Assembly (NCBI RefSeq): GCF_000876015.1
Contig: NZ_BBQM01000014.1
Location: forward strand, 186,001-250,000
Reading direction: 5' to 3'
Origin: Cupriavidus basilensis
GTDB lineage: Bacteria; Pseudomonadota; Gammaproteobacteria; Burkholderiales; Burkholderiaceae
DNA length: 64,000 nucleotides
The position numbers were made by a program, and so were the translations under genes. This document shows positions 18,470-64,000 of the stretch, piece after piece (within the stretch, counting starts at the first letter, position 1; each line of letters begins with the position of its first letter). Below the pieces are notes generated by a model. That model ran no database searches. It was not told the DNA's origin and worked only from the letters and a program-made list of their open reading frames with translations.

Positions 18470-18607
18470 GTTTTCACTCCTTGACCCCGGCTGCCACGGC
18501 GCGGAACGTGGCAATGATGGCGGGTTTGACTTCGGGCGCGAGGGCGGACGCATGATGACCGAGGGAGCAGCCGTCTGACAAATCCTAAATGACTGTACGA
18601 GTTTAAC

Positions 18608-18778: not shown

Positions 18779-18803
18779 GCCAGGCTGTGCTGCGCAGCCT
18801 GGC
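18779..18803. terminator. Hairpin downstream of the small minus-strand gene
   Basis: Arms GCCAGGCTG (18779-18787) and CAGCCTGGC (18795-18803) with a seven-base loop. It lies about 70 bases beyond the stop of the 65-residue gene on the minus strand. No T-tract follows, so the function is uncertain. Confidence 0.35.
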
Positions 18804-18874
18804 TGCCGGCCGGCTGCTGCTTTGCGTCCCGGATGGCGCGGCTCGCCGCCGCAGCGGGAGACGCCATCCTCAAT

Positions 18875-20776: not shown

Positions 20777-20836
20777 GATGTCCTTGCCCAGGTTTCGATA
20801 TGGCCAGTCAGGAGGCACGCGCCGCGCACGGCGCGC

Positions 20837-23455
20837 TCATCGGCGTACCACCGGCGCGCCGGTGGTCACGGTGGCCGCCGCCGTGGCGATGGACGCGCAG
20901 CCGGCCTTGATCTGCTGATAGCTGCTGCCCTTGTCCGTCTTCTTGCGCTCCGGCAGCGTGTAGTCGATGCGGCAGGCCGACGCATCGCCGCTGCCCCACG
21001 AGACCTTCAGCACGCCCTTGTCCCGGAGCCCGCGCGCGAAGATCTTGCCGGCCTGGCCGACCACGCCGACTTCCTGGCCGGTCTCGTCGCGCACCGACGC
21101 CCCGAACGGCAGCGGTGCATTGCCGTCGCGCAGCGCCCGGATCAGCGCCGAGCGCCCCGAAATGGTCTCGAACCTGAGCATCGGCACCGCGCCGGCGCGC
21201 GGCGCGACCTGCTGGCTGGTCTCGCGCAGCTCCACGTCGGTGGACAGTCCCTTCGGGTCGAGCGCCACCGTGTTCATGCTGTACGGCGTCAGGTACGGCA
21301 CCACCGCGTAGCCGCGGCTGTCGATGCGCACGCCGGGCGCGTTGGCCACGCGCGCGCCCTCGGCGGCGGGCGCCTCGACGATCGCGAAGGTGTCGGACAG
21401 CGGCTGCGACAGCGTGATGCCGCCGCGGTGCAGGACCGCCGCGCCGCGCACGCCGAGCGAGGCCTGCTGGCGATCGGCGCCGGCGCCCATGCTGCCGCTG
21501 AAATCCGCATACGCGCTGCGGTACAGCACGTTGGCGCTGCCGTCGGTGCTGGATTGCCCGGCGCCCGAGCTGTGGTTCACGCTCAGGCCATACGAGAAGT
21601 TGCTGTCGGCGCCGGCCGAGCCCGACACGGAGGTCTGTGCCTGCGTGCTGCCGCGGCTGTCGTGCGAGACGCTGCCCGTCACGGTCAGCGGGCGCTGCTT
21701 GCCCAGCGGGATCGTGATGTTGGCGTAGTACATCGTGCTCATGCGGCCGTCCACGCTGCGCTGGCGCATGGCCGACACGCCGAAGGCGATGTTCCTGTAG
21801 GTGTTGGCGTAGCCGACCGAATAATTGATGTCCGAGCCGCTGCGGTTCCAGTAGTTGGCGGTCGACGCGGTCAGGTTGAGCCGCCCGCCGCGCTCGCCGA
21901 GCTGCTGGCCGAGCGTGACCGAAGCGCGGTTGCGCTGGCGCCAGACGCTGTCGATGCTCTGGCCGTTCTCCGCGCGCGTGCGCGCGAGCATGGCCTCGTT
22001 GAGGCCGAAGTAGCCGCCCGTGGAGTAGCGGTAGGCGGCGATCGCCACGTCGGTGCGGGTCTTTGGCACCAGCTTGGAATAGCTGATGCGCGTGCTCGTG
22101 CCGCTGAAGCGGCCCTGGCCGGGCAGCGAGGTGAGCGCCTGCGTCACGTCCGCGCCGAGCGCGCCGAACGGCGTGTTGAAGGCCCCGCCCAGCATCGCCG
22201 AGCCGTAGCCCTGCGCCAGCGTCACGCCGCCGTAGCCGGTCAGCAGGTTGCTGATGCCGCGCTGCCAGGTGGCCTGGGCGAACAGCGGGTTGCGCGAGCT
22301 CAACGGGTCGCGCACCGTGCCGGCCACGACACTGTAGCGGTTGACGCCGGGCCGCAGCGACAGCGGCACGGCGGCATACGGCACCGAGAACGAGCGCACC
22401 GAGCCATCCGCCTCGGTGATGGCGACGTTCAGGTCGCCGCCGTAGCCGGTGGCGTAGAGATCGTCGATCTCGAACGCGCCGGGCGCGACCGTGGTCTCGT
22501 AGATCGTCATGCCGTTCTGGCGGATCGTCACCCGGGCATTGCTGTTGGCGACGCCGCGCACCGTCGGCGCGTAGCCGCGCAGCGAATCGGGCAGCATGCG
22601 GTCGTCGGTGGCGATGCGCACGCCGCGGAAAGCGGTCGAGTCGAACAGTTCGCCGCTGGTGTAGGCCTCGCCGATGGTCAGTTGCGAAGCCAGCTTCGTC
22701 AGGTCGCGCTGGGCATAGGTGGCGACGTTCTGGTAGACGCTGCGCCCGTTCGCGTCCCAGTTGTAGGAGCCGTTGTGGCGGAAATGCCAGTTGCCCGCGT
22801 TGAAGCCCGCGTTCAGGCCGAGGTAGCCCTGCGTGTGCATGCTGGCGCCGCGGCTCTTGAAACTGTAGACGTTGAGGTTGTAGCCGAGCATGCCGGTCGT
22901 CACGCCGGAGTCGAGCAGGTCGGGGCTCACATAGCCGCGCGCGCTGCGGCTCAGCGAAACCTGCGGCACGCCGATGTCCAGGCGCTGGTCGCCGAAGTCC
23001 AGGCTCACGCTGGCGTCGGGCACCACCTCGGCAAGCGGCAGGCACGCGCCCGCGATCGCGAGCCTCGACGCCGTTTCGGGGGACAGCTTGCGGAAATCGA
23101 TGCCGATGCCTTGCAGCAGCTTGCCGTCGAAGCAGGCCTGCGCGTCGCGGTCGCCGTCGCCGAGGAGCCTGAACGGCACGTCGGCGCGGCTCACGCGGCT
23201 GCCGTTGACGTAGATGTCGAGGCTGTAGACGCCGGGCAGCACGACGTTGCCGTGCTCGAAGCGCGACAGATCCACGTGCCGGGCGTTGCCTTTCACCAGG
23301 AACCCGCTGTCGAACTCGACCTGCGCGACCTGCCTCGCCGCGGGCGCGCCCGCCTCGGCCAGTGCCTCGGACTGCCATGCGGCCAGGCTCGACAGCACCA
23401 GCGCGCACAATGGCTTGAGGCGGAAATGAAAGGCGCCATCGCGGGCGGGGGTCAT
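20837..23455 (-). CDS. Outer-membrane fimbrial usher, locus B
   Basis: 872 residues from ATG 23455 with AAGGAG upstream. Signal peptide (ending SEALAEA), N-terminal domain (VEFDSGFLVKGNARHVDLS), barrel with AAYRYSTGGYFGL, and the C-terminal block IDSRGYAVVPYLTPYSMN ending with a Cys pair (ASACRIDY, AGCASIA). It has normal usher length and lacks the long N-terminal extension seen in the locus A usher. It assembles the locus B fimbria in the outer membrane. Its stop lies 60 bases before the tip adhesin start. Confidence 0.94.
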   Translation of the reverse strand: MTPARDGAFHFRLKPLCALVLSSLAAWQSEALAEAGAPAARQVAQVEFDSGFLVKGNARHVDLSRFEHGNVVLPGVYSLDIYVNGSRVSRADVPFRLLGDGDRDAQACFDGKLLQGIGIDFRKLSPETASRLAIAGACLPLAEVVPDASVSLDFGDQRLDIGVPQVSLSRSARGYVSPDLLDSGVTTGMLGYNLNVYSFKSRGASMHTQGYLGLNAGFNAGNWHFRHNGSYNWDANGRSVYQNVATYAQRDLTKLASQLTIGEAYTSGELFDSTAFRGVRIATDDRMLPDSLRGYAPTVRGVANSNARVTIRQNGMTIYETTVAPGAFEIDDLYATGYGGDLNVAITEADGSVRSFSVPYAAVPLSLRPGVNRYSVVAGTVRDPLSSRNPLFAQATWQRGISNLLTGYGGVTLAQGYGSAMLGGAFNTPFGALGADVTQALTSLPGQGRFSGTSTRISYSKLVPKTRTDVAIAAYRYSTGGYFGLNEAMLARTRAENGQSIDSVWRQRNRASVTLGQQLGERGGRLNLTASTANYWNRSGSDINYSVGYANTYRNIAFGVSAMRQRSVDGRMSTMYYANITIPLGKQRPLTVTGSVSHDSRGSTQAQTSVSGSAGADSNFSYGLSVNHSSGAGQSSTDGSANVLYRSAYADFSGSMGAGADRQQASLGVRGAAVLHRGGITLSQPLSDTFAIVEAPAAEGARVANAPGVRIDSRGYAVVPYLTPYSMNTVALDPKGLSTDVELRETSQQVAPRAGAVPMLRFETISGRSALIRALRDGNAPLPFGASVRDETGQEVGVVGQAGKIFARGLRDKGVLKVSWGSGDASACRIDYTLPERKKTDKGSSYQQIKAGCASIATAAATVTTGAPVVRR

Positions 23456-23682
23456 GACTACTTGCTCCTTGATAAAAGCCGTTGGCATCCGGCATGACCG
23501 GATGCACGGCCGAGCGGGGCTTGCCAGGGTCCTCCGGGACCTGGCCGCCGCCTGCCGGTGCGGGCTGTTCACGAAAGCCCTGGCTGCACGCGGCGGATAT
23601 GGACTGGATCTGTCTGGAAAGCGGGAACGGTCCGCGCGGTCCCGGCGGGACTGGCATGGTTGCCAGCCCCGCCCGCCCGCGC

Positions 23683-24447
23683 CTACTGCGCCAGCCTGAC
23701 CGCGGACGGCTGCTTGCCCTGCACGGCGCCGCCCCAGTCGTTGATGGCGCTGTAGTTGACGGACACGGCCGAGGCCGGCGGCGCCGCAAGGCCTTCGACC
23801 GCGAACGTCCGCGAGCCGCCGGGCAGGACGTAGCCCTTGCCGGCGTTGAGGTCCCGGCCGTCGGCCAGGAGCGAGATGCTGCCGAGGTTCACCACATACG
23901 GGCTCGGGTTGGTCGCCTTCAGCGCATATCCCTTGCCGCCTTCGCCGCGCACGAGCTCCCATGTGACCTTCGCCGGCGCGTCGTCGGCGCTGCCGGCCAG
24001 CGCGGCCGGGCGGAACATCATCTTGATGCGCGTGCGGAAGGCCAGTTGCAGGCGGTTGGTGTTTTCACCGAGCTCCGGCTTTGGCGGCACTTCGAGCACG
24101 TTGAGCCAGAACAGCGATTCCTTGTCCTGCGGCAGCGGCTCCTTGCTGTAGATCACGCGCAGCGTCTGGCCCTTGCCGGGCTCGAGCCGGAACATCGCCG
24201 GCGTCAGCACGAACGGCACGTCGATCTGGTCGGGCGAGGCGTCGGCGTCGCCCGTGTCGATCCAGCTCTGCACCAGCGCCGGGATTTTGCCGTCGTTGGT
24301 GAGCCTGACCGTGACCTCGCGCTCCTGCGCCGGAAAGATGACGCGGGTGCCGGTGATGACCACGCTCGCCTGCGCCGGGGTGGCCAGCCCGCCCGCCACG
24401 GTGAAGGCCGCCGCCATGAGAGGCCCGAGAAAAATGGAGGGTTTCAT
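23683..24447 (-). CDS. Periplasmic fimbrial chaperone, locus B
   Basis: 254 residues with a signal peptide ending PAQA and the mature opening SVVITGTRVIFPAQEREVTV. The PapD-like signature is SLFWLNVLEVP and the subunit-binding strand is FRTRIKMMFRP. The C-terminal domain carries the Asn-Asp-Trp-Gly motif (SAINDWGGAV) that matches INDYGG in the locus A chaperone. Gene order on the minus strand is subunit, chaperone, usher, adhesin. A strong hairpin separates it from the subunit gene, which probably lowers its expression relative to the subunit. Confidence 0.93.
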   Translation of the reverse strand: MKPSIFLGPLMAAAFTVAGGLATPAQASVVITGTRVIFPAQEREVTVRLTNDGKIPALVQSWIDTGDADASPDQIDVPFVLTPAMFRLEPGKGQTLRVIYSKEPLPQDKESLFWLNVLEVPPKPELGENTNRLQLAFRTRIKMMFRPAALAGSADDAPAKVTWELVRGEGGKGYALKATNPSPYVVNLGSISLLADGRDLNAGKGYVLPGGSRTFAVEGLAAPPASAVSVNYSAINDWGGAVQGKQPSAVRLAQ

Positions 24448-24493
24448 CTTTGCTACCGATTGATTTGCTTACTTGGGCAACACGTTTCCTCAG

Positions 24494-24522
24494 AAGCCGT
24501 CTCGGCATTGCCGAGACGGCTT
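24494..24522 (-). terminator. Hairpin between locus B subunit and chaperone genes
   Basis: Perfect 13-base arms AAGCCGTCTCGGC (24494-24506) and GCCGAGACGGCTT (24510-24522) around a three-base loop. It lies between the subunit stop and the chaperone start on the transcribed (minus) strand. No T-tract follows, so partial termination or mRNA 3'-end protection of the subunit message is the likely role. Confidence 0.6.
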
Positions 24523-24593
24523 GAAAGGCCTCGCCTTGCGGCGGCGGGGTCAGGCGCCGGACCGTCTTCCGCGCAACGCCGGCCGGCTGTCGA

Positions 24594-25142
24594 TCACTCG
24601 TAGACCAGCGAGTACCGGACACGCGAGTTCGCGGCGCCGGACGTGACGGTGCCGGTGCCGGTCGCGAAGTATTCGGCGAAGTAGTTCAGCGTGGCGCCAT
24701 TGCCAACGATGTTCACGGCCGGCGAGTTCTGGCCGGTCAGCGCGGTGCCCGCGTTGATCACGCCCTGGGTGGCATTCAGCAGGCGGATTTCGACGCCGCT
24801 GGCGCCGCCTGCGTCCACGGTCAGGCGGCCGGTGCTGTTGACCGTCGGGCCGGCTTCGAAGCTGGTGGAAACCTTGGTGGCCGAACCCCCCTGGCAGCCG
24901 GAGAGCGTGATCGAGAACGGCGTGCGGCCGGCGGTGGCGCCCTGGGTCGACAGCGCGTTGGCCGATACCGGGGGCAGCGGCACCGTCACGTCGGTGGGGC
25001 CGTTGCTGCCATTGATCTGGCACGTGGTGGCGACGATGTTGCCGGTGATTTCGATCGTGCCGTCGTAGGCGTTGGCGACCGGGGCGAATGCAGCCGCTGC
25101 TGCTGCGGCGGCGATGGCAGAAGCAAGAAGGGTATTTTTCAC
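24594..25142 (-). CDS. Fimbrial major subunit, locus B
   Basis: 182 residues from a GTG start at 25142. The signal peptide ends PVANA; the mature pilin opens YDGTIEITGNIVATTCQING and has the partner Cys in LSGCQGGS. It ends SRVRYSLVYE with the penultimate-residue Tyr pattern near the C-terminus. It is a type 1-family pilin related to the locus A subunit, including the Y/FDG-x-I-x-x-TG start, but well diverged. No strong ribosome site is visible before the GTG. A long AT-rich upstream region with several palindromes precedes it. Confidence 0.92.
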   Translation of the reverse strand: MKNTLLASAIAAAAAAAAFAPVANAYDGTIEITGNIVATTCQINGSNGPTDVTVPLPPVSANALSTQGATAGRTPFSITLSGCQGGSATKVSTSFEAGPTVNSTGRLTVDAGGASGVEIRLLNATQGVINAGTALTGQNSPAVNIVGNGATLNYFAEYFATGTGTVTSGAANSRVRYSLVYE

Positions 25143-52710: not shown

Positions 52711-53385
52711 ATGAACGACATTCCAACGAAATCCCACGGCGAGCCGCCCCCGCCACGCACCTGGGATGCCCGCCTCGCGCGTGCGCTGGTGCGCCCGCTG
52801 AAGGACTCGTGGGTCACTCCCAACCATCTCACCACCGTGCGGCTGCTGATCGGCCTGGCCGGCGTCGCCTGCCTGATGCAGGGCGGCTACGGCTGGACCA
52901 ACTACGGCGCGTTCCTGATCGTGCTGTCCAACTTCGTCGACCATACCGACGGCGAACTGGCGCGGATCAGCGGCAAGACCAGCAAGATCGGCCATTTCTA
53001 CGATCTTGCCAGCGATGCGCTCATCACCGTGCTGCTGTTCGTCGGCATGGGCGTGGCGATCGCGGGCCAGGCCGCGGCCGGCAGCTTTTCGCCGGTGCTG
53101 CAGGGCACGCTGGCCGGGCTGGCGGTGGCGCTGATCTTCTTTTTGCGCATGCGCATCGAATCGGCGGTGGGCAAGAGCGGCACCAGACAGGCCGCCGCCG
53201 CCGGCTTCGAGACCGAGGACGTGCTGTACCTGCTGCCGATCGTCACGCTGAGCAACGGCATCGCGCCGTTCCTGACCGCCGCCGCGATCGGCGCGCCGCT
53301 GTTCGCGGTGCTGGTGGCGATCGACTACTGGCGCGTGATGCGCAAGGTGCGCACGGCCCGCGCCAATATCCAAGGAACACGATGA
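52711..53385 (+). CDS. CDP-alcohol phosphatidyltransferase family protein
   Basis: 224 residues, integral membrane with about six helices. The complete catalytic signature D77-x-x-D80-G81-x-x-A84-R85-(x8)-G94-(x3)-D98-(x3)-D102 is present (DHTDGELAR, then GHFYDLASD). These enzymes displace CMP from a CDP-alcohol and transfer the phospho group to another alcohol in the inner membrane. As first gene of an operon that makes 2-aminoethylphosphonate and contains nucleotidyltransferases, its likely donor is a CMP-phosphonate such as CMP-AEP and its acceptor a lipid alcohol. This assignment is inference from context. Its stop overlaps the next start (ATGA). Confidence 0.9.
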   Translation: MNDIPTKSHGEPPPPRTWDARLARALVRPLKDSWVTPNHLTTVRLLIGLAGVACLMQGGYGWTNYGAFLIVLSNFVDHTDGELARISGKTSKIGHFYDLASDALITVLLFVGMGVAIAGQAAAGSFSPVLQGTLAGLAVALIFFLRMRIESAVGKSGTRQAAAAGFETEDVLYLLPIVTLSNGIAPFLTAAAIGAPLFAVLVAIDYWRVMRKVRTARANIQGTR

Positions 53386-54212
53386 GCGAACCAGCCAACG
53401 ACATCACCCTGGACGCGCCGCCGCAGGCGGCGCCCGCTTCCGCGCCGCGCCAGGGCCAGCCCGCGCGGCCCGACCCGGACGCCAGCGTCGCCGGGCGCAT
53501 CGCCGGGCTCGACAGCGCGAAGCTGCGCGCCGACTTCGAGCGCCAGGACGCCTTCCTGAACCTGCAGGAATTCCTCGCGCCGGAAGTCACCGCGCAACTG
53601 ATCGCCGCGGCCCGCGCGCTGGTGCCGGACATCAACCGCAACTACCTGCCCGGCCACAAGGCCGGCGGCAGCGTCAGCCGCCACACCATCGACGAGAAGG
53701 CGCCGTTCATCGCCGAGCTGTACCGCTCGCGCGCGCTGATCTCGTGGCTGGAGCGCATCAGCGGCGACAAGCTGCTGCTGTCGCCGCAAAGCGATCCGCA
53801 CGCCTACGCGCTGTACTACTACACGCGCCCGGGCGACCACATCGGCTGGCACTACGACACCTCCTACTACGACGGCCGCCGCTACACGCTGCTGCTCGGC
53901 GTGATCGACGAGTCGACCTGCCTGCTCGACTACGAGCTGCACACGCGCAACCCCGACGTGCCCGACGAGGCGGGCTCGGTGCGGATCGGGCCGGGCGGGC
54001 TGGTGTTCTTCGACGGCGACAAGCTGCGCCATCGCGTCACGCCCGCCGGCGAGGACGAGTTCCGCGTGTCGCTGACGTTCGAGTACGTCACCGATCCGGG
54101 CATGCGCCCGTGGCTGCGCTTCATCTCCAACATGAAGGACGCGGTGGCCTATTTCGGTTTCCGCCAGGTGTTCAAGAACCTGACGTCCGGCAAGAAGAAG
54201 CCTCGCGCATGA
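53382..54212 (+). CDS. 2-oxoglutarate/Fe(II)-dependent oxygenase
   Basis: 276 residues from ATG 53382, overlapping the preceding stop by four bases, with AAGGA upstream. A 70-residue Pro/Ala-rich N-terminus precedes a double-stranded beta-helix core with the Fe(II) facial triad His157-x-Asp159 (GWHYDTS) and His217 (LRHRVTP), and the 2-oxoglutarate-binding Arg228 (FRVSL). It probably hydroxylates a substrate in the cytoplasm or at the membrane. In this operon candidates are the phosphonate headgroup or the lipid chain. It is not of the PhnY type by obvious motif, so the substrate remains open. Confidence 0.9.
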   Translation: MSEPANDITLDAPPQAAPASAPRQGQPARPDPDASVAGRIAGLDSAKLRADFERQDAFLNLQEFLAPEVTAQLIAAARALVPDINRNYLPGHKAGGSVSRHTIDEKAPFIAELYRSRALISWLERISGDKLLLSPQSDPHAYALYYYTRPGDHIGWHYDTSYYDGRRYTLLLGVIDESTCLLDYELHTRNPDVPDEAGSVRIGPGGLVFFDGDKLRHRVTPAGEDEFRVSLTFEYVTDPGMRPWLRFISNMKDAVAYFGFRQVFKNLTSGKKKPRA

Positions 54213-55234
54213 CCCGTGCCGCCATGATCCTGCTGTCGGTCGGCGTGGCGCTGTTCGTCGCGCTGCTGGCATGGCAGGGCTTCGGCTCGGTCGCGTCGAC
54301 GTTCATGTCGGCGGGCTGGGGCCTGGTGGCGGTGGCCGCGTTCCACCTGCTGCCGCTGGCGGTGGACGCGGCCGCGATCCGCGTGCTGTTCGGCCGCGAC
54401 GGCCATTGCTCGCTGCGCGACACGCTGCTGGCGCGCTGGGCCGGCGAGTCCGTCAACAGCCTGCTGCCGGCGGGCCAGATCGGCGGGCCGGTGCTGATGG
54501 TGCGCTTCCTGTCGCAGCGCGGCGTGCGCATGCGCGACGCCGCGGCCGCCATCACCGTGTGCACCACCATGCAGGCGCTGGCGCAGATGGTGTTCGCCTT
54601 CGCCGGCCTGGCGCTGTTCGGCCTGTATGGCGGACACGAGGCGCTGTCCGACCTGCGCGCGCCCACGCTGATCGTCACCGCGGTGCTGGGGCTGTGCATC
54701 GTGGGGTTCTATTACGTGCAGAAGCGCGGCCTGTTCGGGCGCGTGCTGCGCGTGCTGTCGAAGCTGTTCGGCAAGCGCGACTGGAGCGGCCTGACCACGC
54801 GTGCCGACGCCGTGGACGCCGCCGTGCACGAGCTGTACCGCGACCGCGCCAGGGTCGCCAGGACCTTCGCGCTGAGCCTGGCCGGCTGGGTGGTCGGCAC
54901 CGGCGAAGTCTGGCTGGCGCTGCATTTCCTCGGCCACCCGGTGAGCTGGCTCGATGCCCTGCTGCTGGAAAGCGTGGGGCAGGCCATCCGCGGCGCGGCC
55001 TTCGCGATTCCCGGCTCGCTGGGCGCGCAGGAAGGCGGCTACCTGCTGCTGGCGCCCATCGTGGGACTGCCGCCGGACGCGGCGCTGGCGCTTTCGCTGG
55101 CCAAGCGCGCGCGCGAGATCGGCCTCGGCGCGCCGGGGCTGCTGTACCTGCATTTGAGTGAAAGACGTTTCCAGCGACGGCGTGCCACGGCCAGCACCAC
55201 CAGTGCGGCCAGTGTGCGGGCCACTACCGATTGA
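54209..55234 (+). CDS. Flippase-like membrane protein (LPG synthase TM/YbhN family)
   Basis: 341 residues from ATG 54209, overlapping the oxygenase stop (ATGA). About eight hydrophobic helices, with the family's conserved points: AGESVNSLLPAGQIGGPV at about 87-104 and GAAFAIPGSLGAQEGGYL at about 268-285. This UPF0104/AglD-like family is linked to lipid flipping or lipid-linked glycan and hopanoid export in other systems. Here it would suit movement of the phosphonolipid product across the inner membrane. That function is inferred from context only. Confidence 0.88.
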   Translation: MTRAAMILLSVGVALFVALLAWQGFGSVASTFMSAGWGLVAVAAFHLLPLAVDAAAIRVLFGRDGHCSLRDTLLARWAGESVNSLLPAGQIGGPVLMVRFLSQRGVRMRDAAAAITVCTTMQALAQMVFAFAGLALFGLYGGHEALSDLRAPTLIVTAVLGLCIVGFYYVQKRGLFGRVLRVLSKLFGKRDWSGLTTRADAVDAAVHELYRDRARVARTFALSLAGWVVGTGEVWLALHFLGHPVSWLDALLLESVGQAIRGAAFAIPGSLGAQEGGYLLLAPIVGLPPDAALALSLAKRAREIGLGAPGLLYLHLSERRFQRRRATASTTSAASVRATTD

Positions 55235-55265
55235 TCGAACCTATTTGGATGAGCGCGGAGAAAGA

Positions 55266-56030
55266 ATGCGAGCAATCATTCTTGCTGCGGGCCTAGGCCT
55301 GCGACTGCAGCAACAGCCCGGGGAGCAATACCCGAAGTGCCTGTTGCGTTTTGAGGGGATGACCCTGCTGGAGCGCCACCTGCGCATGCTGGATGCGGCG
55401 GGTGTCGACGAGATCGTGCTGGCGCTCGGCTTCCAGCCCGAGCAGGTGGAGGCCGAACTGCGGCGCCTGGGCCGCGATCCGTATCCGGAGATCGTGCTGA
55501 ACCCGCGCTACGACCTGGGCAGCGTGCTGACCGTGCATACCGTGGCCGACGCGCTCACCCGCGGCGGCGACGTGCTGCTGATGGACGCCGACGTGCTCTA
55601 CGACGAGCGCATCCTGCGCGCGCTGGTGGCCGGCGAGACCACCAACCGCCTGCTGATCGACCGCGATTTCGAAGCCGGCGACGAGCCCGTCAAGCTGTGC
55701 CTGAAGGACGGCGTGCCGGTCGAGCTGCGCAAGCAGCTCGCGGTGGGCCTGGAGTACGACACCATCGGCGAGTCCGTCGGCTTCTTCCGCTTCCAGGAGC
55801 AGACCGCGCGCCGCCTGGCCGAGATCGTCAAGGGCTACGTGGACGGCGGCCGCGCCAACATGCCGCACGAAGAAGCGGTGCGCGACCTGCTGCTCGAAGG
55901 CGGCCACGTCTTCGACACCGCCGACGTGAGCGGCGCGCCCTGGATCGAAATCGATTTTCCTGGCGACGTCGCGCGCGCGCGCGACGAAGTCCTGCCCGAA
56001 CTACAGCGCCTCGTGGGAGCAGCACAATGA
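55266..56030 (+). CDS. NTP transferase (sugar/alcohol-phosphate or phosphonate nucleotidyltransferase)
   Basis: 254 residues from ATG 55266 (GGAG six bases before). Nucleotidyltransferase fold: the N-terminal loop [20 protein letters not shown] with Lys in [10 protein letters not shown], the metal-binding MDADVLYD near residue 105, and the second metal site near EIDFPGD. Related enzymes activate phosphocholine or 2-aminoethylphosphonate with CTP. In this operon CTP:AEP or CTP:phosphonate cytidylyl transfer is the likely reaction, but a second nucleotidyltransferase domain is fused to the next gene, so one of them may have a different substrate. Stop overlaps the next start (ATGA). Confidence 0.88.
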
Positions 56031-57733
56031 ACGCAATCGACCCGATTTTCCCGCGCGCCACGCGCGCCGCCCGCCTGCGCCAGATGCTGGTCGGCAAAGA
56101 GCTCGAATTCATCATGGAAGCCCACAACGGCCTGTCCGCGCGCATCGTGCGCGAGGCCGGCTTCAAGGGCATCTGGGCCTCGGGCCTGGCGATCTCCGCG
56201 CAGTTCGGCGTGCGCGACAACAACGAGGCGAGCTGGACCCAGGTGGTCGACAACCTCGAGTTCATGGCCGACGCCAGCGACCTGCCGATCCTGCTCGACG
56301 GCGACACCGGCTACGGCAACTTCAACAACATGCGCCGCCTGGTGCGCAAGCTCGAGCAGCGCGGCATCGCCGGCGTGTGCATCGAGGACAAGCAGTTCCC
56401 CAAGACCAACAGCTTCATCGACGGCGAGCGTCAGCCGCTGGCCGAGATCGACGAGTTCTGCGGCAAGATCAAGGCCGGCAAGGACTCGCAGGCCGACGAC
56501 GACTTCTCCATCGTGGCCCGCGTCGAAGCGCTGATCGCCGGCTGGGGCATGGATGAAGCGCTGCGCCGCGCCGAGGCCTACCGCCAGGCCGGCGCCGACG
56601 CCATCCTGATCCACAGCAAGCTGTCCAGGCCCGACGAGATCCTCACGTTCGCGCGCGAGTGGGCCGGCCGCGGCCCGCTGGTGATCGTGCCGACCAAGTA
56701 CTACAGCACGCCGACCGAAGCGTATCGCAAGGCCGGCATCAGCCTGGTGATCTGGGCCAACCACCTGATCCGCGTGGCGGCCTCGTCGATGCAGGCCGTG
56801 GCAAAGGAAATCCACGACAGCGAGACGCTGGTCAACGTGGAAGACCGCATCGCCACCGTCAACGAGATCTTCCGCCTGCAGGACGCCGACGAATACTCGG
56901 CCGCCGAGAAGATCTACCTGTCCGGCGCGCAGGTGCCGGGCGCGGCGGTGGTGCTGGCCGCCGGCCGCGGCAAGGGCCTGGAAGCGCTGACCGAGGACAA
57001 GCCCAAGATCATGCTGCCGGTGGCCGGCAAGCCGCTGCTGCGCTGGCTGGTGGACGCGTTCAAGAAGCAGTCGATCAACGACATCACCGTGGTCGGCGGC
57101 TACCAGGCCGGCGCCATCGACACCGCCGGCATCAAGCTGGTGGTCAACGAGCGCCACGCCCAGACCGGCGAGCTGGCCTCGCTGGCGTGCGCGGTGGACG
57201 GCCTGCAGACCGACACCGTGATCGCCTACGGCGACCTGCTGTTCCGCAGCTACATCCTGCGCGACCTGCTGGAAAGCGACGCGCCGTTCAGCGTGGTGGT
57301 GGACTCCTCGCAGAACGCGCCGGCCAACCAGAGCGTGCACGACTTCGCCTGGTGCTCGGCGCCCGACGACCGCGACCTGTTCGGCCAGAAGATTCTGCTG
57401 CGCCATGTGTCGAGCAAGGCCGAGCAGGCCGGCGCTGCGCCCGCGCAGCCGGCCAACGGCCGCTGGATCGGCCTGCTCAACGTGCGCGGCGAAGGGCGCG
57501 CGCGCCTGCAGAAGCTGATCGGCGAGCTGCGCGCGCGCGACGACTTCGACACGCTGGACCTGCCCGCGCTGCTCAACGCGCTGGTGGCCGCCGGCGAGGA
57601 AATCGAGGTCAAGTACGTGCACGGCCACTGGCGCGGCGTGAACGACCTGGAAGACTTCCGCCGCGCGGGCGATTTCGCCCACACGCAGACGCAGTTCGCG
57701 GCCGGCACCACGGACGGCGAGGAAGCCCGATGA
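56027..57733 (+). CDS. pepM: Phosphoenolpyruvate mutase fused to a nucleotidyltransferase
   Basis: 568 residues from ATG 56027 (GGGAG upstream, ATGA overlap with the preceding gene). Residues 1 to about 295 are PEP mutase: the catalytic signature [10 protein letters not shown] is at 120-129, preceded by [10 protein letters not shown]. It converts PEP to phosphonopyruvate, the step that forms the C-P bond. Residues from about 305 are a nucleotidyltransferase ([20 protein letters not shown], then YGDLLF and [13 protein letters not shown]). Such fusions are known where phosphonates are activated with CTP (PntC-type). Its stop overlaps the natural start of the decarboxylase. Confidence 0.95.
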
Positions 57734-58930
57734 TCGAGGCGGCACAGTTCGTCGAGGCCGCGCGCGCGCGGTTTCGACTGGTATGCCGGCGTGCCGTGTT
57801 CCTACCTGACGCCGTTCATCAACTACGTGCTGCAGGACCCCACGCTGCACTACGTCTCGGCCGCCAACGAAGGCGACGCGGTGGCGCTGATCGCGGGCGT
57901 CACGCTGGGCGCGCGCGGCGGCCGCCGCGGCATCACCATGATGCAGAACTCGGGCCTGGGCAACGCGGTCAGCCCGCTGACCTCGCTGACCTGGACCTTC
58001 CGCCTGCCGCAGTTGCTGATCGTCACCTGGCGCGGCCAGCCGGGCGTGGCCGACGAGCCGCAGCACGCGCTGATGGGCCCGGTCACGCCGGCCATGCTGG
58101 AGACGATGGAGATCCCCTGGGAGACCTTCCCGACCGACCCGGCCGAGATCGGCCCGGCGCTGGACCGCGCGGTGGCCCACATGGACGCCACCGGCCGGCC
58201 CTACGCGCTGGTGATGCAGAAGGGCAGCGTGGCGCCCTACGCGCTCAAGGAACAGGCGCGCCCCGCGCCGCGCCCGAAGGCCGTGCCGCGCGCCGCGCTG
58301 GCCGGCGCGCCGACGCTGCCCACGCGCCGCGAGGCGCTGCAGCGCGTGATCGCGCATTCGCCGCCGGGCAAGACCGTGGTGCTGGCCTCCACCGGCTTCT
58401 GCGGGCGCGAGCTGTACGCGCTCGATGACCGCGCCAACCAGCTCTACATGGTCGGCTCGATGGGCTGCCTGACGCCGTTCGCGCTCGGCCTGGCGCTGGC
58501 GCGCCCGGACCTGGACGTGATCGCCGTGGACGGCGACGGCGCGGCGCTGATGCGCATGGGCGTGTTCGCCACGCTCGGCGCCTACGGCCCGCCCAACCTG
58601 ACCCACGTGCTGCTGGACAACGGCGCGCACGACTCCACCGGCGGCCAGGCGACCGTCTCGCACAACGTCTCGTTCGCCGGCGTGGCCGCCGCGTGCGGTT
58701 ATGCCGAGGCCGTCGAAGGCGACGACCTCGCCGTGCTGGAAGACGTGCTGGCGCGGCCGGCCGCCGGCGCCGGCCCGCGCCTGGTGGCGCTGTCGATCAG
58801 CGCCGGCACGCCGGACGGCCTGCCGCGCCCGACCGTGACCCCGGTCGAGGTCAGGACCCGCCTGGCGCGCCATATCGGCGCGGACATCGGCGCCGATCTC
58901 GACACCGCCGCCGCACAAGGAGCCAAGTAA
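57730..58930 (+). CDS. Phosphonopyruvate decarboxylase, frameshifted at the N-terminus
   Basis: The natural start is ATG 57730 (ATGA overlap with pepM): it reads [14 protein letters not shown], then leaves the family frame inside GCGCGCGCGCG (57760-57770). The remaining protein, in another frame, reads [17 protein letters not shown] and continues intact to 58930. Restoring one missing GC unit joins the two parts exactly. The TPP-dependent enzyme has [22 protein letters not shown] (TPP/Mg motif) and [13 protein letters not shown], and converts phosphonopyruvate to phosphonoacetaldehyde. GTG 57791 is the only start in the intact frame and would drop the first 21 residues. The next gene starts at once after its stop. 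Confidence 0.85.
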
Positions 58931-59995
58931 ATGCTGCTACTCAACCCCGGCCCCGTCACGCTGAGCGAGCGCGTGCGCCGCAGCCTGCTGCAGCCCGACC
59001 TGTGCCACCGCGAAAGCGAGTTCTTCGACCTGCAGGACGAAGCGCGCGCGCGGCTGCCCGACGTGTACGGGCTCGACCCCGCCGCCTGGACCGCGGTGCT
59101 GATGACCGGCTCCGGCACCGCCGCGATGGAAAGCATGACCGCCGCGCTGGTGCCCGCGAACGGCAAGCTGCTGGTGGTGCAGAACGGCGTCTACGGCGAG
59201 CGCATCGCGCAGATCGCCGCGCAATACCGCATCGCCCATGAGGTGGTGGCGCACGACTGGAAGCAGGCGCCCGACCTGGACCGCGTCGCCGCCGCGCTCG
59301 AGGCCGATCCCGCCATCACGCACGTGGCCGTGATCCACCACGAGACCACCACCGGCCGCCTCAACGACCTGCCGGCGCTCGACGCGCTGTGCCGCGCGCG
59401 CGGCGTGCGGCTGCTGGTGGACGGCGTCAGCAGCTTCGGCGCCGAGGCCATCGACTTCGGCGGCAACGTCGACGCCGTGGCCGCCACCGCCAACAAGTGC
59501 CTGCACGGCGTGCCCGGCGTGTCGTTCGTCATGGTGCGGCGCAGCGCGCTGGCGCAGGCCGCGAGCCGCACCTACTACCTCGACCTGGGCCGCCTGGCGC
59601 GCCTGCAGGACCAGCGCAACACGCCGTTTACGCCCGCCGTGCACGTGTACTACGCGCTGGTGGAAGCGCTGCGCGAACTGGCCGACGAAGGCGGCTGGCG
59701 CGCGCGCCACGCCCGCTACGCCGGGCTGGCCGAACGCGCCCGCGCCGGGCTCGAGGCGCTGGGCATACCGGCGCTGTGGCCGGCCGCGCAATCGTCGGTG
59801 GTGCTGCGCGCCTACCACCTGCCCGCCGGGCTTTCGTACGCGCAGCTGCACGACGGCCTGAAGGCGCGCGGCTTCGTCATCTACGCCGGCCAGGGCGGCT
59901 TGTCCGCGGAACTGTTCCGCATCTCCACGATGGGGAACATCGGGCCGGACGACATCGACCGCCTGCTGCAGGGCTTCCGGGAACTGACGCGGTAA
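58931..59995 (+). CDS. phnW: 2-aminoethylphosphonate-pyruvate transaminase
   Basis: 354 residues from ATG 58931, abutting the decarboxylase stop. Class V aminotransferase fold: LLLNPGPVTLSERVRRSLL at the N-terminus, GSGTAAMES at about 59-67, PLP-contact VDGVSSFGAE, and Schiff-base Lys189 in TANKCLHGVPG, then SFVMVRR. In a biosynthetic operon it runs from phosphonoacetaldehyde to 2-aminoethylphosphonate. It is a normal length for the family. It is the last gene before an intrinsic terminator. Confidence 0.93.
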   Translation: MLLLNPGPVTLSERVRRSLLQPDLCHRESEFFDLQDEARARLPDVYGLDPAAWTAVLMTGSGTAAMESMTAALVPANGKLLVVQNGVYGERIAQIAAQYRIAHEVVAHDWKQAPDLDRVAAALEADPAITHVAVIHHETTTGRLNDLPALDALCRARGVRLLVDGVSSFGAEAIDFGGNVDAVAATANKCLHGVPGVSFVMVRRSALAQAASRTYYLDLGRLARLQDQRNTPFTPAVHVYYALVEALRELADEGGWRARHARYAGLAERARAGLEALGIPALWPAAQSSVVLRAYHLPAGLSYAQLHDGLKARGFVIYAGQGGLSAELFRISTMGNIGPDDIDRLLQGFRELTR

Positions 59996-60002
59996 GAGTG
60001 AC

Positions 60003-60044
60003 AATGGCGCCGCCGGACCGCGCGGCCGGCGCCATTTGGTTTTT
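60003..60044 (+). terminator. Intrinsic terminator of the phosphonate operon
   Basis: Arms AATGGCGCCG (60003-60012) and CGGCGCCATT (60027-60036) are perfect, followed by TTGGTTTTT. It lies eight bases after the transaminase stop. This is the best classical intrinsic terminator in the window. Confidence 0.85.
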
Positions 60045-60141
60045 GTGCCCGAGGCACTAGCATTAGATATCGGTCGCGGCCCGTCTCCGGGAGACGGGCG
60101 CGGCCGCTCCGTTCATGGTCGTACATCGGGAGGTACTCGCG

Positions 60142-60813
60142 ATGCATCGCCGTCTTCGCCGCCGCGGTCTTGCCGCCGCCGGCCTCCCCGCCGCCGCCCT
60201 CGCGGCCTGCGTCGCGCTTGCGCTGGCCGCGGGGCTGCCGCCGGCCGCCACCGCCGCCGACATCGTCGCGCCGGCCGTCGACCGCTCCGCGCCGGACCGC
60301 ATGGTGCGCGCCGCCGTGGAAGGCGTGCTGGCCACCATCCAGGCCAATCCCGACACCCGCAACGGCGATCTCGACAAGATCACCGCCGTCGTGCGGCGCC
60401 AGTTCCTGCCCTACACGGACTTCGAGCACACCACGCGCCTGGCCGTCGGCGCGGCCTGGCGCACCGCGACGCCGGAACAGCAGAAACAGTTGTACGAGCA
60501 GTTCCAGACCCTGCTGGTGCGCAGCTACGCGCTGTCGCTGTCGCAGGTGCGCGACCAGGCCCTGAAGTTCCGCTACAAGCCGCCGCGCACCAGCGGCAAC
60601 GATGCCGTGATCGAGACCAGCGTCATCAACAAGGGCGACGAGGTGCAGATCGACTACCGCCTCCAGCGCGGGCCGGCCGGCTGGGCCATCTACGACATCA
60701 ACATGAGCGGTGCCTGGCTGATCGAGGTGTACCGGCGCCAGTTCGCCGACATCGTGGCCAAGGGCGGCATCGACGGGCTGGTGAAATACCTGACCACCCA
60801 CAACGCGGTCTAG
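60142..60813 (+). CDS. MlaC/Ttg2D-like phospholipid-binding periplasmic protein
   Basis: 223 residues from ATG 60142, eight bases after GGGAGG. An Arg-rich N-region and a long signal peptide ending TAADI, then the MlaC pattern: DRMVRAAVEGVLATIQANP, FLPYTDFEHTTRLAVGAAWR, QLYEQFQTLLVRSYALSL, and WAIYDINMSGAWLIEVYRRQF. MlaC proteins ferry phospholipids between the outer and inner membranes. The gene stands alone here, after the phosphonate operon terminator, without the MlaFEDB partners. It could serve transport of the predicted phosphonolipid; that is only a positional suggestion. Confidence 0.92.
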   Translation: MHRRLRRRGLAAAGLPAAALAACVALALAAGLPPAATAADIVAPAVDRSAPDRMVRAAVEGVLATIQANPDTRNGDLDKITAVVRRQFLPYTDFEHTTRLAVGAAWRTATPEQQKQLYEQFQTLLVRSYALSLSQVRDQALKFRYKPPRTSGNDAVIETSVINKGDEVQIDYRLQRGPAGWAIYDINMSGAWLIEVYRRQFADIVAKGGIDGLVKYLTTHNAV

Positions 60814-60937: not shown

Positions 60938-61070
60938 TGAACAGGGCAAAAATCCGCTGTTACAGTCGCCCGCGCATACCCTTCGCGCCCGGGCCGCATC
61001 CGCAATCCGAACCAGACCCTGGCATGCCGGCGGCGTGCGCTTGCCAACAAATAAAAACGGGTCAGGTCAC

Positions 61071-63080
61071 ATGTTCCACGGTCTTCATGCCGGCGCGCGG
61101 TCTCGCGCGGCCGGTCTGCTCTCGCTTGTCCTCGCCGCGGGCTTGCTGTCCGCCTGCGGCAGCGACGACGCCCCCTCTTCTCCCGCCACCACGCAGGCGC
61201 CCAGCAGCCGCCTCATCGTCGACACCGGCACGGCCGCGCCCGCGCAGGGTAGCACGCTGACGCTGAAGGCGACTTTGCTCGGCGCCGACGGTCTCGAGGT
61301 CAAGGGCGCAAAGTTCGCGTGGTCGTCGTCGAACGAAGCAGTCGCGGTGGTGGCGTCGGCTTCCGACCAGGCGCCGGCGGCGGCCAGCGTGATGCAGCCG
61401 GTGGGCACCTATGCGTCGGTGCGCATGCTGGCGCCGGGCGAGGTCGACATCGTCGCCACGGCGACGCTGCCCGACGGTACTCAGGCCACCAGCACCACGC
61501 ACCTGACGGTGCAGGCCGCGCCCGCGAAGACTTATGCGCTGACGTTGTCGCCCTCCACGCTGACGGTCAACTACGGTGCGACGCCACAAGTTGTCACCGC
61601 GGTGGTGCGGCGCTCGGACGGCGTGGATGGCGCGGCCGATCTCACGGACTGGTCGTGGGCGGTCGACAACGCCACGTTCGCCGCCGCGCCGGCGGCGGAC
61701 AGCCATTCGGCGCAGGTTTCCACCACGGGCACGCTGGCGGGCACGGGGCAGCTCACCGCATGCGCGAGCACGCCGGCGGGCGACCGCCTGTGCGCCAACG
61801 CGGCGCTGGCGCGGCCGCTGGTGGCACTGCCGTCGATCGCGTTCTCGGTGCCGTCGCTGTACGTGAAGCCGGGCCGCACCGGCACCGTGACGGCGACGCT
61901 GACCGACGCGCCGGGCGCGGACCTCGCCGGCCGGGCGACGCTGGCGTGGTCGATCCAGCAAAGCGGCACGGCCGCCTCCATCGTCAGCATGCCCACCAGC
62001 ACCAGCGTGACGATCGGCCTCGATGCCGCGCAGACCGGCACCTATGCCGCGACGCTGACGCTGACCGCGACCTACCCGGATGGCCGCACCAACAGCAGCA
62101 CGCTGCCGCTGACGTTCCCGGGCATGTGGAGCCGCCTGCCGGACGCGCCCATCGCCAGCCCGTCGATCGTCAGCCTGGCCATCGACGGCACGCGCGTGTG
62201 GCGGCTGAGCGCCAACGGCAGCCAGCCGGCGCGGCTGGAGCGCTTCGGTGCTGCCGGCGAAGGGCCGGTCGAGCCCGCCACGGCGCTGCCGGCGGTGACG
62301 CAAGGCATGTGGCTGGCGGCGGATACGAGTGCGGTGAACCCGGCCGATCCGGCGGTGGTGGTGCAACTGGGCACCGATGGCGCGAGCGTGCCGTTCGGCA
62401 GCTTCGACGCGGCCTTCGCCAATCCGCGCGCGGACTTCTCGCTGGCCGGTTGCGCGCAGTATGCGGCGAGCACGACAGCGGGACGCGCCTTCGTGAAGGC
62501 AAGCGGCGGCACCGGCATCGTATCGACGGGCTGGTGTGTCACTTCCGGAACGTGGTGGTGGCAGCCGGTGGGAGGCGGTGCCACCGCCGGGAGAGGTTTC
62601 TCGGGAGCGCCAGTCCTTGACGCGCATCCGTTTCCTGGCGGTGGCGGCTTGGCGATCGCAGCAGATGGATCACGCGACGCAATGCAGCTGAATAGCGAGA
62701 TCTGGTCTGGTGTCGCCCTGGCACCCCTTGCCCAAGGCGCTGTCTCTCCTGACGCCACTGATGAACATGCGCCGATCTATGGCTACGTGGGCGGCAATGG
62801 CATCGTTGTCAGTTCCGACACGTTCCTGCCTTATGTCACGCGGGTGCCCTCGGTGCCGCCCTTGATCAAGCTGAGCGCCATCCCGCATTTCGTGCTGGGC
62901 CTGCCGGCGCCCTGGTCCGTCATCTACGTCGTCAATACGGACGGCAGCGCGCCGACGACGGTCGCGCTGCCCGGCAATGCACTCGGGCTGGATTTCGCGG
63001 GCGCCGTCGACGCCAACGGCAAGCTGCGCATCGCCGTGCGCCTCGCGGACGGCTCGGTGTGGGTCTACGACCAGCCTTGA
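61071..63080 (+). CDS. Ig-like repeat lipoprotein, first tandem copy
   Basis: 669 residues from ATG 61071. Arg-rich N-region and lipobox LLSAC (Cys28), so an outer- or inner-membrane lipoprotein. Residues of about 48-160 and 160-250 look like bacterial Ig-like folds (GSTLTLKATLLGADGLEVKG, YALTLSPSTLTVNYGATPQV), with a third at about 260-350. The C-terminal half (from about FPGMWSRLPDAPI) is a different domain, possibly a beta propeller (IDGTRVWRLSANGSQ, LRIAVRLADGSVWVYDQP). No enzyme motif. A surface-exposed binding role is plausible. A near-identical copy starts at 63340. Confidence 0.85.
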   Translation: MFHGLHAGARSRAAGLLSLVLAAGLLSACGSDDAPSSPATTQAPSSRLIVDTGTAAPAQGSTLTLKATLLGADGLEVKGAKFAWSSSNEAVAVVASASDQAPAAASVMQPVGTYASVRMLAPGEVDIVATATLPDGTQATSTTHLTVQAAPAKTYALTLSPSTLTVNYGATPQVVTAVVRRSDGVDGAADLTDWSWAVDNATFAAAPAADSHSAQVSTTGTLAGTGQLTACASTPAGDRLCANAALARPLVALPSIAFSVPSLYVKPGRTGTVTATLTDAPGADLAGRATLAWSIQQSGTAASIVSMPTSTSVTIGLDAAQTGTYAATLTLTATYPDGRTNSSTLPLTFPGMWSRLPDAPIASPSIVSLAIDGTRVWRLSANGSQPARLERFGAAGEGPVEPATALPAVTQGMWLAADTSAVNPADPAVVVQLGTDGASVPFGSFDAAFANPRADFSLAGCAQYAASTTAGRAFVKASGGTGIVSTGWCVTSGTWWWQPVGGGATAGRGFSGAPVLDAHPFPGGGGLAIAADGSRDAMQLNSEIWSGVALAPLAQGAVSPDATDEHAPIYGYVGGNGIVVSSDTFLPYVTRVPSVPPLIKLSAIPHFVLGLPAPWSVIYVVNTDGSAPTTVALPGNALGLDFAGAVDANGKLRIAVRLADGSVWVYDQP

Positions 63081-63229
63081 ATCCGCCAGAGGCCGCCAGC
63101 CGTTCGCAAGACGGCTCGGCCGATGGCATCGGGCGGTGTCCGGGCGCGGGTCTGTTCTGGCGCGGTGAAAGGGAGCCCGGCCTGCCCATCGGATTCTGGT
63201 CTGCGTTGTGATTAGTAGCGCATGCCGTC

Positions 63230-63254
63230 AAACTTGATAGCCCCGAAGGGGTAT
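63230..63254. promoter_or_regulatory. Conserved upstream box of the second Ig-like lipoprotein
   Basis: The same 25-base block as at 60913-60937, here 110 bases before the start instead of 158. The region between the box and the gene has partly diverged, but GCACTTGCCAACAAATAAAA and the ribosome-site region are conserved. Confidence 0.5.
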
Positions 63255-63339
63255 GGAGGCGGGGGGAAGCCTGCTGCTAGAGTCGCCCGGGCACGCCGGT
63301 GGCGCGCACTTGCCAACAAATAAAAACGGGTCAGGTCAC

Positions 63340-64000
63340 ATGTTCCACGGTCTTCATGCCGGCGCGCGGTCTCGCGCGGCCGGTCTGCTCTCGCTTGTCC
63401 TCGCCGCGGGCTTGCTGTCCGCCTGCGGCAGCGACGACGCGCCATCTTCTTCCCCCGCCACGCAGGCGCCCGCCAGCCGGCTCGTCGTCGACACCGGCAC
63501 GGCCGCGCCCGCGCAGGGCGGCACGCTGACGCTGAAGGCGACTTTGCTCGGCGCCGATGGCCTCGAGGTCAAGGGCGCAAAGTTCGCGTGGTCGTCTTCC
63601 AACGAAGCGGTCGCGGTGGTCGTGTCGGCTTCCGACCAGGCGCCGGCGGCTGCCAGCATGATGCAGCCGGTGGGCACCTATGCGTCGGTGCGCATGCTGG
63701 CGCCCGGTCAGGTCGACATCGTCGCCACGGCGACGCTGCCCGACGGCAGCCAGGCCACCAGCGCTACGCACCTGACGGTGCAGGCCGCGCCCGCGAAGAC
63801 TTATGCGCTGACGCTGTCGCCGTCCACGCTGACGGTCAACTACGGCGCGGCGCCACAAGTCGTCACCGCGGTGGTGCGGCGCTCGGACGGCGTCGATGGC
63901 GTGGCCGATCTCACGAACTGGTCGTGGGCGGTCGACAACGCCACGTTCGCCGCCGCGCCGGCGGCGGACAGCCATTCGGCGCAGGTTTCCACCACGGGCA
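63340..64000 (+). CDS. Ig-like repeat lipoprotein, second tandem copy, 3' partial
   Basis: 220 residues are visible before the window ends. The first 30 residues are identical to the first copy (MFHGLHAGARSRAAGLLSLV, lipobox LLSAC). The rest shows only scattered substitutions, for example ATQAPASRLVVDTG for TTQAPSSRLIVDTG, PGQVDIV for PGEVDIV and VADLTNW for AADLTDW. The start lies 2,269 bases after that of the first copy. A recent tandem duplication with its control region is the simplest reading; whether more copies follow cannot be seen. Confidence 0.9.
   Translation, partial: MFHGLHAGARSRAAGLLSLVLAAGLLSACGSDDAPSSSPATQAPASRLVVDTGTAAPAQGGTLTLKATLLGADGLEVKGAKFAWSSSNEAVAVVVSASDQAPAAASMMQPVGTYASVRMLAPGQVDIVATATLPDGSQATSATHLTVQAAPAKTYALTLSPSTLTVNYGAAPQVVTAVVRRSDGVDGVADLTNWSWAVDNATFAAAPAADSHSAQVSTTG

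Follow-up and report, generated by a model that had tools for sequence, protein, structure and literature searches.

Candidate phosphonate head-group operon with links to hopanoid lipids in Cupriavidus and other Burkholderiaceae

Results

A seven-gene operon predicted to make and attach a phosphonate head group

Positions 52711 to 59995 of a 64,000-nucleotide stretch of the Cupriavidus basilensis genome (contig NZ_BBQM01000014.1, positions 186,001 to 250,000; hereafter the window) hold seven genes that very probably build a head group with a carbon–phosphorus (C–P) bond and attach it to a membrane lipid. Their families, order and genomic company lead us to read the operon, with a probability of roughly 0.64, as an alternative hopanoid head-group branch in which 2-aminoethylphosphonate (AEP) would be placed on a hopanoid polyol. 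Hopanoids are bacterial analogues of sterols and the source of a major molecular-fossil record, and the HpnI-J-K(-L) branch makes one of their head-group forms, bacteriohopanetetrol cyclitol ether.

In the pathway that we propose, phosphoenolpyruvate (PEP) mutase, phosphonopyruvate decarboxylase (Ppd) and an aminotransferase would yield AEP, which a PntC-like enzyme (gene 4) would convert to its cytidine monophosphate (CMP) derivative, CMP-AEP. From CMP-AEP, gene 1 would then pass AEP on to a C35 hopanoid polyol, at one of its hydroxyls; this polyol (bacteriohopanetetrol or ribosylhopane) would be supplied by squalene-hopene cyclase (SHC), HpnH and HpnG. A HalD-like 2-oxoglutarate (2OG) oxygenase would hydroxylate the head group, the simplest site being C1 of AEP. 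The zwitterionic hopanoid would be flipped by the HpnL of the operon and carried to the outer membrane by HpnM and HpnN, the whole standing in for, or beside, HpnI-J-K(-L). We infer these reactions, the acceptor, the site of hydroxylation and the flipping step from what the genomes carry, namely the genes and their families, their synteny and co-occurrence, and the missing or degraded hpnIJKL genes. The initial annotation, made from the letters of the window, had proposed transfer from CMP-AEP to a lipid alcohol followed by hydroxylation and flipping; family assignments, motifs and synteny fit this scheme, and the acceptor can now be specified as most probably a hopanoid polyol. The features concerned are as follows.

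52711..53385, + strand: gene 1, CDP-alcohol phosphotransferase (PF01066, 50.7 bits)
53382..54212, + strand: gene 2, HalD/BesD-like 2OG-Fe(II) oxygenase (PF23169 HalD, 46.1 bits)
54209..55234, + strand: gene 3, HpnL (LPG_synthase_TM), proposed flippase (TIGR03476, 361.6 bits; PF03706)
55266..56030, + strand: gene 4, stand-alone nucleotidyltransferase, PntC-like (PF12804)
56027..57733, + strand: gene 5, PEP mutase with a fused nucleotidyltransferase domain (TIGR02320, 397 bits; C-terminal PF12804)
~57730..58930, + strand: gene 6, phosphonopyruvate decarboxylase (ppd), frameshifted (TIGR03297, 443.6 bits over 57791–58927)
58931..59995, + strand: gene 7, AEP aminotransferase (TIGR03301, 404 bits, cut-off 360.8)
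~60003..60045, + strand: terminator-like hairpin and T run after gene 7 (fold of 59996–60045)
60115..60813, + strand: HpnM/MlaC-like protein downstream of gene 7 (PF05494, 157 bits; likelier start, judged by eye, ATG 60142)

Family scans recovered all seven genes of the initial annotation on the + strand, with the positions and families it had given them. The coupling between genes is nearly as close as it had described, with ATGA overlaps at 1/2, 2/3, 4/5 and 5/6 and genes 6 and 7 abutting, the exception being a 31-base gap between genes 3 and 4. The membrane protein that it called flippase-like is more exactly an HpnL, from a hopanoid-associated family whose cut-off (195.65 bits) it clearly exceeds, and both nucleotidyltransferase domains of that annotation are present, the catalytic motif being kept in the stand-alone one only. 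The terminator said to close the set corresponds to a hairpin with a T run, whose fold has an energy of −24 kcal/mol and z −2.0, 6 of 200 shuffles being equally good; a simple consensus promoter and terminator scan of the region gave nothing informative, and this hairpin was not among its matches.

To follow the operon beyond the window, 60 Cupriavidus genomes and 398 Burkholderiaceae genomes from 25 genera were surveyed. A neighbourhood comparison, as suggested with the initial annotation, found the same seven-gene order in 27 of 27 Cupriavidus relatives (genes 5 and 6 being incomplete in one, L041). Because this order is kept despite mostly different flanks, comparison of the loci indicates that the set is a real unit, more than chance. 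The oxygenase occurs in 28 of the 60 Cupriavidus genomes and the PEP mutase fusion in the same 28. In the wider survey of 398 genomes, 243 carry the oxygenase and come from 11 of the 25 genera; 237 have both oxygenase and fusion, 6 the oxygenase only, 6 the fusion only (matches of any strength up to E 1e-40 being counted) and 149 neither. A further 34 loci (32 from Burkholderiaceae, two from other families of the order) comprised 22 with all seven genes in order, one with six genes at a contig end, seven with genes 1–4 only, two degraded, one rearranged and one with the oxygenase alone, and the full order was found in nine other genera (g6, g7, g9, g10, g11, g15, g16, g17 and g25). In genus g20 the operon is split: seven of eight loci (L134, L138, L140, L160, L162, L163 and L167) hold the core of genes 1–4 without genes 5–7, the eighth being damaged, and eight of nine PEP mutase loci, each from a different genome, have PEP mutase, Ppd and aminotransferase in order away from the core (the ninth, L171, has part of ppd only and no aminotransferase match). 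Co-occurrence of the two halves in g20, though unlinked, is evidence that they work together.

Predicted AEP synthesis and activation

The profiles for PEP mutase, Ppd and AEP aminotransferase (TIGR02320, TIGR03297 and TIGR03301) all score above their cut-offs and the PEP mutase motif EDKxxxxxNS is intact in gene 5; AEP synthesis, and its activation with cytidine triphosphate (CTP), are well supported as predicted activities of the operon. The best PDB match of gene 4 is the CTP:AEP cytidylyltransferase Tde-PntC (6pd1; E 1.1e-8), with LicC next, and Arg15, Lys25 and Lys153 of Tde-PntC align with its R13, K24 and K156. Alanine mutants of Tde-PntC at these three residues retained less than 10% activity, according to the available part of the published study (PMC6697681).

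We then compared the GxGxR...PK motif in stand-alone and PEP-mutase-fused domains from 73 loci of the Burkholderiaceae set and 82 others (one of the latter, L182, being from Mycetohabitans); a fused copy was counted when its alignment covered more than 450 residues of the query. Of the stand-alone copies, 61 of 63 in the Burkholderiaceae set have the motif (of the two without it, one has an insertion and one is truncated), and so do 49 of 52 of the others. None of the fused domains has it (0/59 and 0/81, hence 0/140), that of the window having LAAGRGKGL in place of GxGxR. Since the motif is found in stand-alone copies and never in fused ones, gene 4 is probably the PntC-like CTP:AEP cytidylyltransferase that makes CMP-AEP, and the fused domain of gene 5 is probably not an active nucleotidyltransferase. 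The fused domain had been considered as the AEP-activating enzyme, a role that we dropped on finding the catalytic Arg motif in no fused copy.

In the window itself, the ppd reading frame is broken near 57760, within a run of GC dinucleotides (57751–57780), and is open only from a GTG at 57791. This run lacks two bases that near relatives such as L037 have, and ppd is open through it in 26 of the 27 relatives, the remaining one being the incomplete draft copy of L041. The break may be a real mutation, slippage or an assembly error, and unless it is the last of these the phosphonate pathway may be impaired in this genome.

The proposed head-group transferase and the oxygenase

The perfect CDP-alcohol phosphotransferase signature announced for gene 1, D-x2-DG-x2-AR-x8-G-x3-D-x3-D, is indeed intact, at residue 77 (DHTDGELARISGKTSKIGHFYDLASD). 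The nearest NCBIfam model, archaetidylinositol-phosphate synthase, is matched at 55.8 bits against a cut-off of 180, AF2299 is the sole PDB match, and a simple hydropathy scan finds three hydrophobic segments.

This enzyme bears on whether CMP-AEP could instead be destined for a lipid-linked glycan or lipopolysaccharide, in which case the UPF0104/LPG_synthase_TM protein would handle that carrier. For most PEP mutase clusters the predicted products are phosphonoglycans and phosphonolipids of the cell wall, according to the introduction of PMC6697681, but when the seven conserved genes were scanned with Pfam no glycosyltransferase or LicD-type domain was detected, and the only head-group transferase kept in all 27 relatives is the CDP-alcohol phosphotransferase. 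We consider such a phosphonoglycan or lipid-A decoration very improbable, and a glycan pathway was dropped for want of a glycosyltransferase domain in the Pfam scan of the operon.

Gene 2 belongs with the 2OG lysine/ornithine halogenases and hydroxylases of the HalD/BesD type by family (PF23169) and by fold, the best fold matches of its structure model (predicted local distance difference test score 83) being HalB, HalD and BesD. In halogenases of the HalD/BesD type the metal site is H-x-G, the Asp having been replaced. Gene 2 differs from them in having H-x-D (H157-Y-D159) and in its operon context of phosphonate and hopanoid genes. In an alignment of 21 sequences no substitution occurs at H157, D159, H217 or R228, and because of this conserved site gene 2 is expected to be a hydroxylase; a halogenase role was dropped, as the H-x-D facial triad is intact. 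Lipids with 1-hydroxy-2-AEP are known from other organisms, and together with a PhnY-like enzyme found in Rhodospirillales (see below) they make C1 of AEP the simplest candidate target.

Hopanoid genes beside the phosphonate genes

Two proteins link the operon of the window to hopanoids. One is the HpnL encoded by gene 3, which shares 33% identity with the hpnIJK-linked HpnL that this genome also carries; PMC12583986, in its accessible part, describes the roles of hpnA, hpnB and hpnL as not established. The other is encoded by the gene that starts ~120 bases after gene 7. It scores 86.7 bits with TIGR03481, below the cut-off of 160.1, yet HpnM from a Cupriavidus hopanoid locus matches it at 71% identity over 186 aa, and that from the hopanoid locus of its own genome at 76% over 182 aa. 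We therefore call it HpnM-like, this identity to hopanoid-locus HpnM being high despite the sub-cut-off score, and regard it as a second copy, since the genome's own hopanoid locus holds another hpnM.

The HpnM-like gene also follows the operon in 4 of the 27 Cupriavidus relatives. More widely, hpnM and/or hpnN lie within ~5 kb of the operon at 11 of 61 loci outside the window, in six genera (Cupriavidus, g6, g7, g10, g15 and g16). The arrangement is more extensive in Mycetohabitans, where hpnD-shc-hpnG and hpnA-hpnH-ispH-hpnM-hpnN end ~4 kb before the operon's aminotransferase gene, hpnN being nearest; in M. rhizoxinica, dxs adjoins that aminotransferase gene.

Phosphonate and hopanoid genes also meet outside the Burkholderiaceae. 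On a plasmid of Roseomonas marmotae, genes for a nucleotidyltransferase, PEP mutase, Ppd, an HpnL-type protein, an aminotransferase and a CDP-alcohol enzyme adjoin ispH-hpnH-hpnG-shc-hpnE-hpnD, with no HalD-like oxygenase annotated among the phosphonate genes. We examined 80 PEP mutase loci that are the best relatives of the Roseomonas protein, many of them on short contigs or from metagenome-assembled genomes (MAGs). SHC, HpnH, HpnG or HpnE are encoded at 15 of the 80, and at 22 when HpnA and HpnD are counted too, in several gene arrangements; none of the 80, Roseomonas included, has a match to the HalD-like oxygenase. In one Rhodospirillaceae MAG (L220) a single stretch holds hpnD, shc, hpnG, hpnH, ispH, hpnA, hpnN and an hpnL-like gene together with genes for a nucleotidyltransferase, a PhnY-like oxygenase, PEP mutase, Ppd, PhnW and three CDP-alcohol enzymes, and its HpnD, HpnA and HpnN score above cut-off. 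Two or three CDP-alcohol phosphotransferase genes are present in each of the Rhodospirillales phosphonate/hopanoid clusters (L220, L211, L215, L231 and relatives).

For the PhyH-family oxygenase of L220 the best NCBIfam model is the methylphosphonate hydroxylase PhnY, at 167.7 bits and thus far below the cut-off of 500. A similar PhyH protein is encoded at 31 of the 80 PEP mutase loci, in 26 of them no more than ~1.1 kb from PEP mutase. In Rhodospirillales the phosphonate pathway is thus accompanied by a 2OG oxygenase from a different family, which fits phosphonate hydroxylation.

Co-occurrence with hopanoid genes and probable loss of hpnIJKL

SHC is present in 242 of the 243 oxygenase-bearing Burkholderiaceae genomes. 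A rule equating presence of SHC with presence of the operon was dropped, SHC occurring in 290 of the 398 genomes and the oxygenase in 243. In the 60 Cupriavidus genomes we found SHC in 56, HpnL in 55, HpnH in 58 (every one of the 28 operon genomes among them) and HpnJ in 39; HpnL tracks SHC, being present in 55 of 56 SHC-positive genomes and in none of the four without SHC, and the operon's HpnL is the only one in 15 of the 28 operon genomes. More than one SHC match, which may include incomplete copies, was seen in 15 of the 28 operon-bearing Cupriavidus and in 1 of the 32 operon-free.

The 56 SHC-positive Cupriavidus divide into 27 with hpnJ but no operon, 17 with the operon but no hpnJ, 11 with both and one with neither (Fisher 5.8e-6, uncorrected for phylogeny). 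A second HpnL accompanies the operon in 11 of 11 genomes that also have hpnJ, and 15 of the 17 operon-only genomes have no other HpnL. The position of hpnJ differs as well: of the operon-free SHC-positive genomes, 27 of 28 have it no more than 5 kb from hpnH, as do 2 of 28 that bear the operon (Fisher 2.9e-12, likewise uncorrected), and in the other nine genomes with operon and hpnJ the latter is away from hpnH.

In four operon-free species (L270, L271, L275 and L276) the hopanoid locus reads hpnA-ispH-hpnH-...-hpnL-hpnM-hpnN, and hpnI, J and K lie inside it in L275 and in the operon-bearing G039 (L272). In operon carriers, the slot between hpnH and hpnM holds a piece of hpnL in G043, a piece of hpnJ in G032, pieces of hpnK in G009 and G025, and nothing recognisable in G024. 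Ten of the other 12 operon-only genomes have hpnH and then hpnM with no hpnIJKL match between them (in G029 the two are separated by a 5 kb gap that lacks such a match); in G044 the contig ends after hpnH, and G026 has a divergent HpnH match that lacks hopanoid neighbours. The slot is empty too in G000, G003, G016 and G040, which carry both branches. Altogether, the slot was read in 20 operon genomes (G004, G005, G006, G028, G036 and G046 not being among them), and 19 of these lack hpnIJKL there. The remnants of different hpn genes are, as we read these loci, the stronger sign that hpnIJKL was lost repeatedly.

Observations against the hopanoid reading and rival explanations

Several observations weigh against a hopanoid acceptor. 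On an rpoB tree of 57 of the 60 Cupriavidus genomes (G045, G047 and G051 having no rpoB row), at least 7 changes of state are required for the operon and at least 10 for hpnJ. Six independent pairs for operon versus hpnJ gave 3–4 opposite and 0–1 same (sign test p 0.125–0.625), and operon versus hpnJ next to hpnH, a trait chosen after the data were seen, gave 4–5 opposite and 0–1 same (p 0.0625–0.375); the opposition of operon and hpnJ is suggestive, not significant, after tree correction. Individual genomes depart from it as well, G005 and G039 carrying the operon plus hpnJ beside hpnH and G035 having SHC and HpnH with neither operon nor hpnJ branch. Because SHC is also present in 48 Burkholderiaceae genomes that lack the oxygenase, its co-occurrence with the operon is one-way, and it is partly taxonomic. 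Hopanoid genes are near the operon at 0 of 24 loci of genera g9, g11, g17, g20 and g25, within flanks of ~5 kb of which some are cut by contig ends, and the HpnL-like protein encoded in L220, at 167.7 bits, falls short of the HpnL cut-off. In g20, moreover, G121, G254, G273 and G332 have the oxygenase at E 5.2e-116 or better and no fusion at E ≤ 1e-40 (three first-look candidates per genome being scored in this survey); all four core genes are present in the two of these genomes that were read (L178 and L179), so that in g20 the core may survive without AEP or take another donor.

The main rival is that gene 1 puts AEP on diacylglycerol, giving a phosphonate analogue of phosphatidylethanolamine, or on ceramide, in which case HpnL and HpnM would be general lipid movers and the links to hopanoids indirect. 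Kennedy-type CDP-alcohol enzymes use diacylglycerol and proteins of the MlaC fold bind phospholipids, both of which would suit such a generic phosphonolipid, as do the five genera lacking a hopanoid gene beside the operon and the loss of significance on the tree. It accounts less readily for the way in which HpnL tracks SHC in Cupriavidus, for phosphonate genes in or beside the hopanoid loci of Mycetohabitans, Roseomonas and Rhodospirillales, and for the absence of hpnIJKL from nearly every slot read in operon genomes, and we judge it unlikely.

The g20 loci are also what would be expected if genes 1–4 formed a separable module that builds a head group from another phospho-alcohol, AEP synthesis being an add-on: the core stands there without PEP mutase, Ppd and aminotransferase, and four genomes lack the fusion at the threshold used. 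Against this, the fusion is present in 237 of the 243 oxygenase genomes, the best PDB match of gene 4 is an AEP cytidylyltransferase, and in two of the nine g20 PEP mutase loci a gene 4 copy (L175) or gene 4 tail (L173) directly precedes gene 5, as expected of a split seven-gene operon. We give the two-module explanation little credence.

Other features of the window

Downstream of the operon, 61035–63080 encodes Ig-like repeats with a lipoprotein-type start (by eye), and a tandem near-copy of this gene (95% over 695 bases) occupies 63081–64000 and leaves the window. The region 6572–25142 holds two sets of reading frames that, judged by eye from the starts of their translations, are chaperone-usher-like pilus genes.

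Discussion

On balance we think it probable, from the genomic evidence, that phosphonohopanoids exist as a lipid class in which a CDP-alcohol phosphotransferase has attached AEP, possibly hydroxylated, to a C35 hopanoid; that the class is widespread in Burkholderiaceae and Rhodospirillales and able to replace the cyclitol-ether branch; and that HpnL is a flippase for head-group-bearing hopanoids. The closest parallel within hopanoid synthesis is the hpnI-hpnJ-hpnK-hpnL branch with its transporters hpnM and hpnN, also a head-group pathway with an HpnL of its own, and in Cupriavidus the operon tends to occur where hpnIJKL is gone from the hopanoid locus. The two would differ in chemistry, a CMP-activated phosphonate and a CDP-alcohol enzyme being predicted here in place of the glycosyltransferase HpnI and the radical-SAM enzyme HpnJ.

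The initial annotation held that this combination of genes is not a described pathway, which is true in part. The logic of PntC has been published: in the Pnt (phosphonyl tailoring) pathway (Rice et al. 2019, PMC6697681), AEP is produced by PEP mutase, Ppd and an aminotransferase and converted to CMP-AEP by a LicC/PntC-like enzyme that has the conserved Arg/Lys/Lys, and PEP mutase is fused to a PF12804 domain. The operon departs from that pathway in its transferase, a CDP-alcohol phosphotransferase, in the added oxygenase and HpnL, in its hopanoid linkage, and in a fused domain that lacks GxGxR...PK in all 140 copies. The link of SHC to PEP mutase has likewise been noted, by a 2021 genome survey that, in its accessible sections, reports shc linked to PEP mutase in some Roseomonas and suggests an undiscovered terpene-phosphonate (PMC8776678). 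That hybrid cluster resembles the operon in having AEP genes, an LPG_synthase_TM protein and a CDP-alcohol enzyme beside shc, hpnH and hpnG, and differs in having no match to the HalD-like oxygenase. As for the operon as a whole, its oxygenase or a phosphonohopanoid, no description was recognised among the matches listed in a full-text literature search, which covered few subscription journals.

If the hopanoid reading is correct, capping with phosphonate would give a hopanoid that is polar and zwitterionic and could escape workups blind to C–P bonds. It would also suggest a purpose for much of the PEP mutase found in Burkholderiaceae and in some Rhodospirillales, give hpnL a testable role, and link the phosphonate cycle to membrane lipids.

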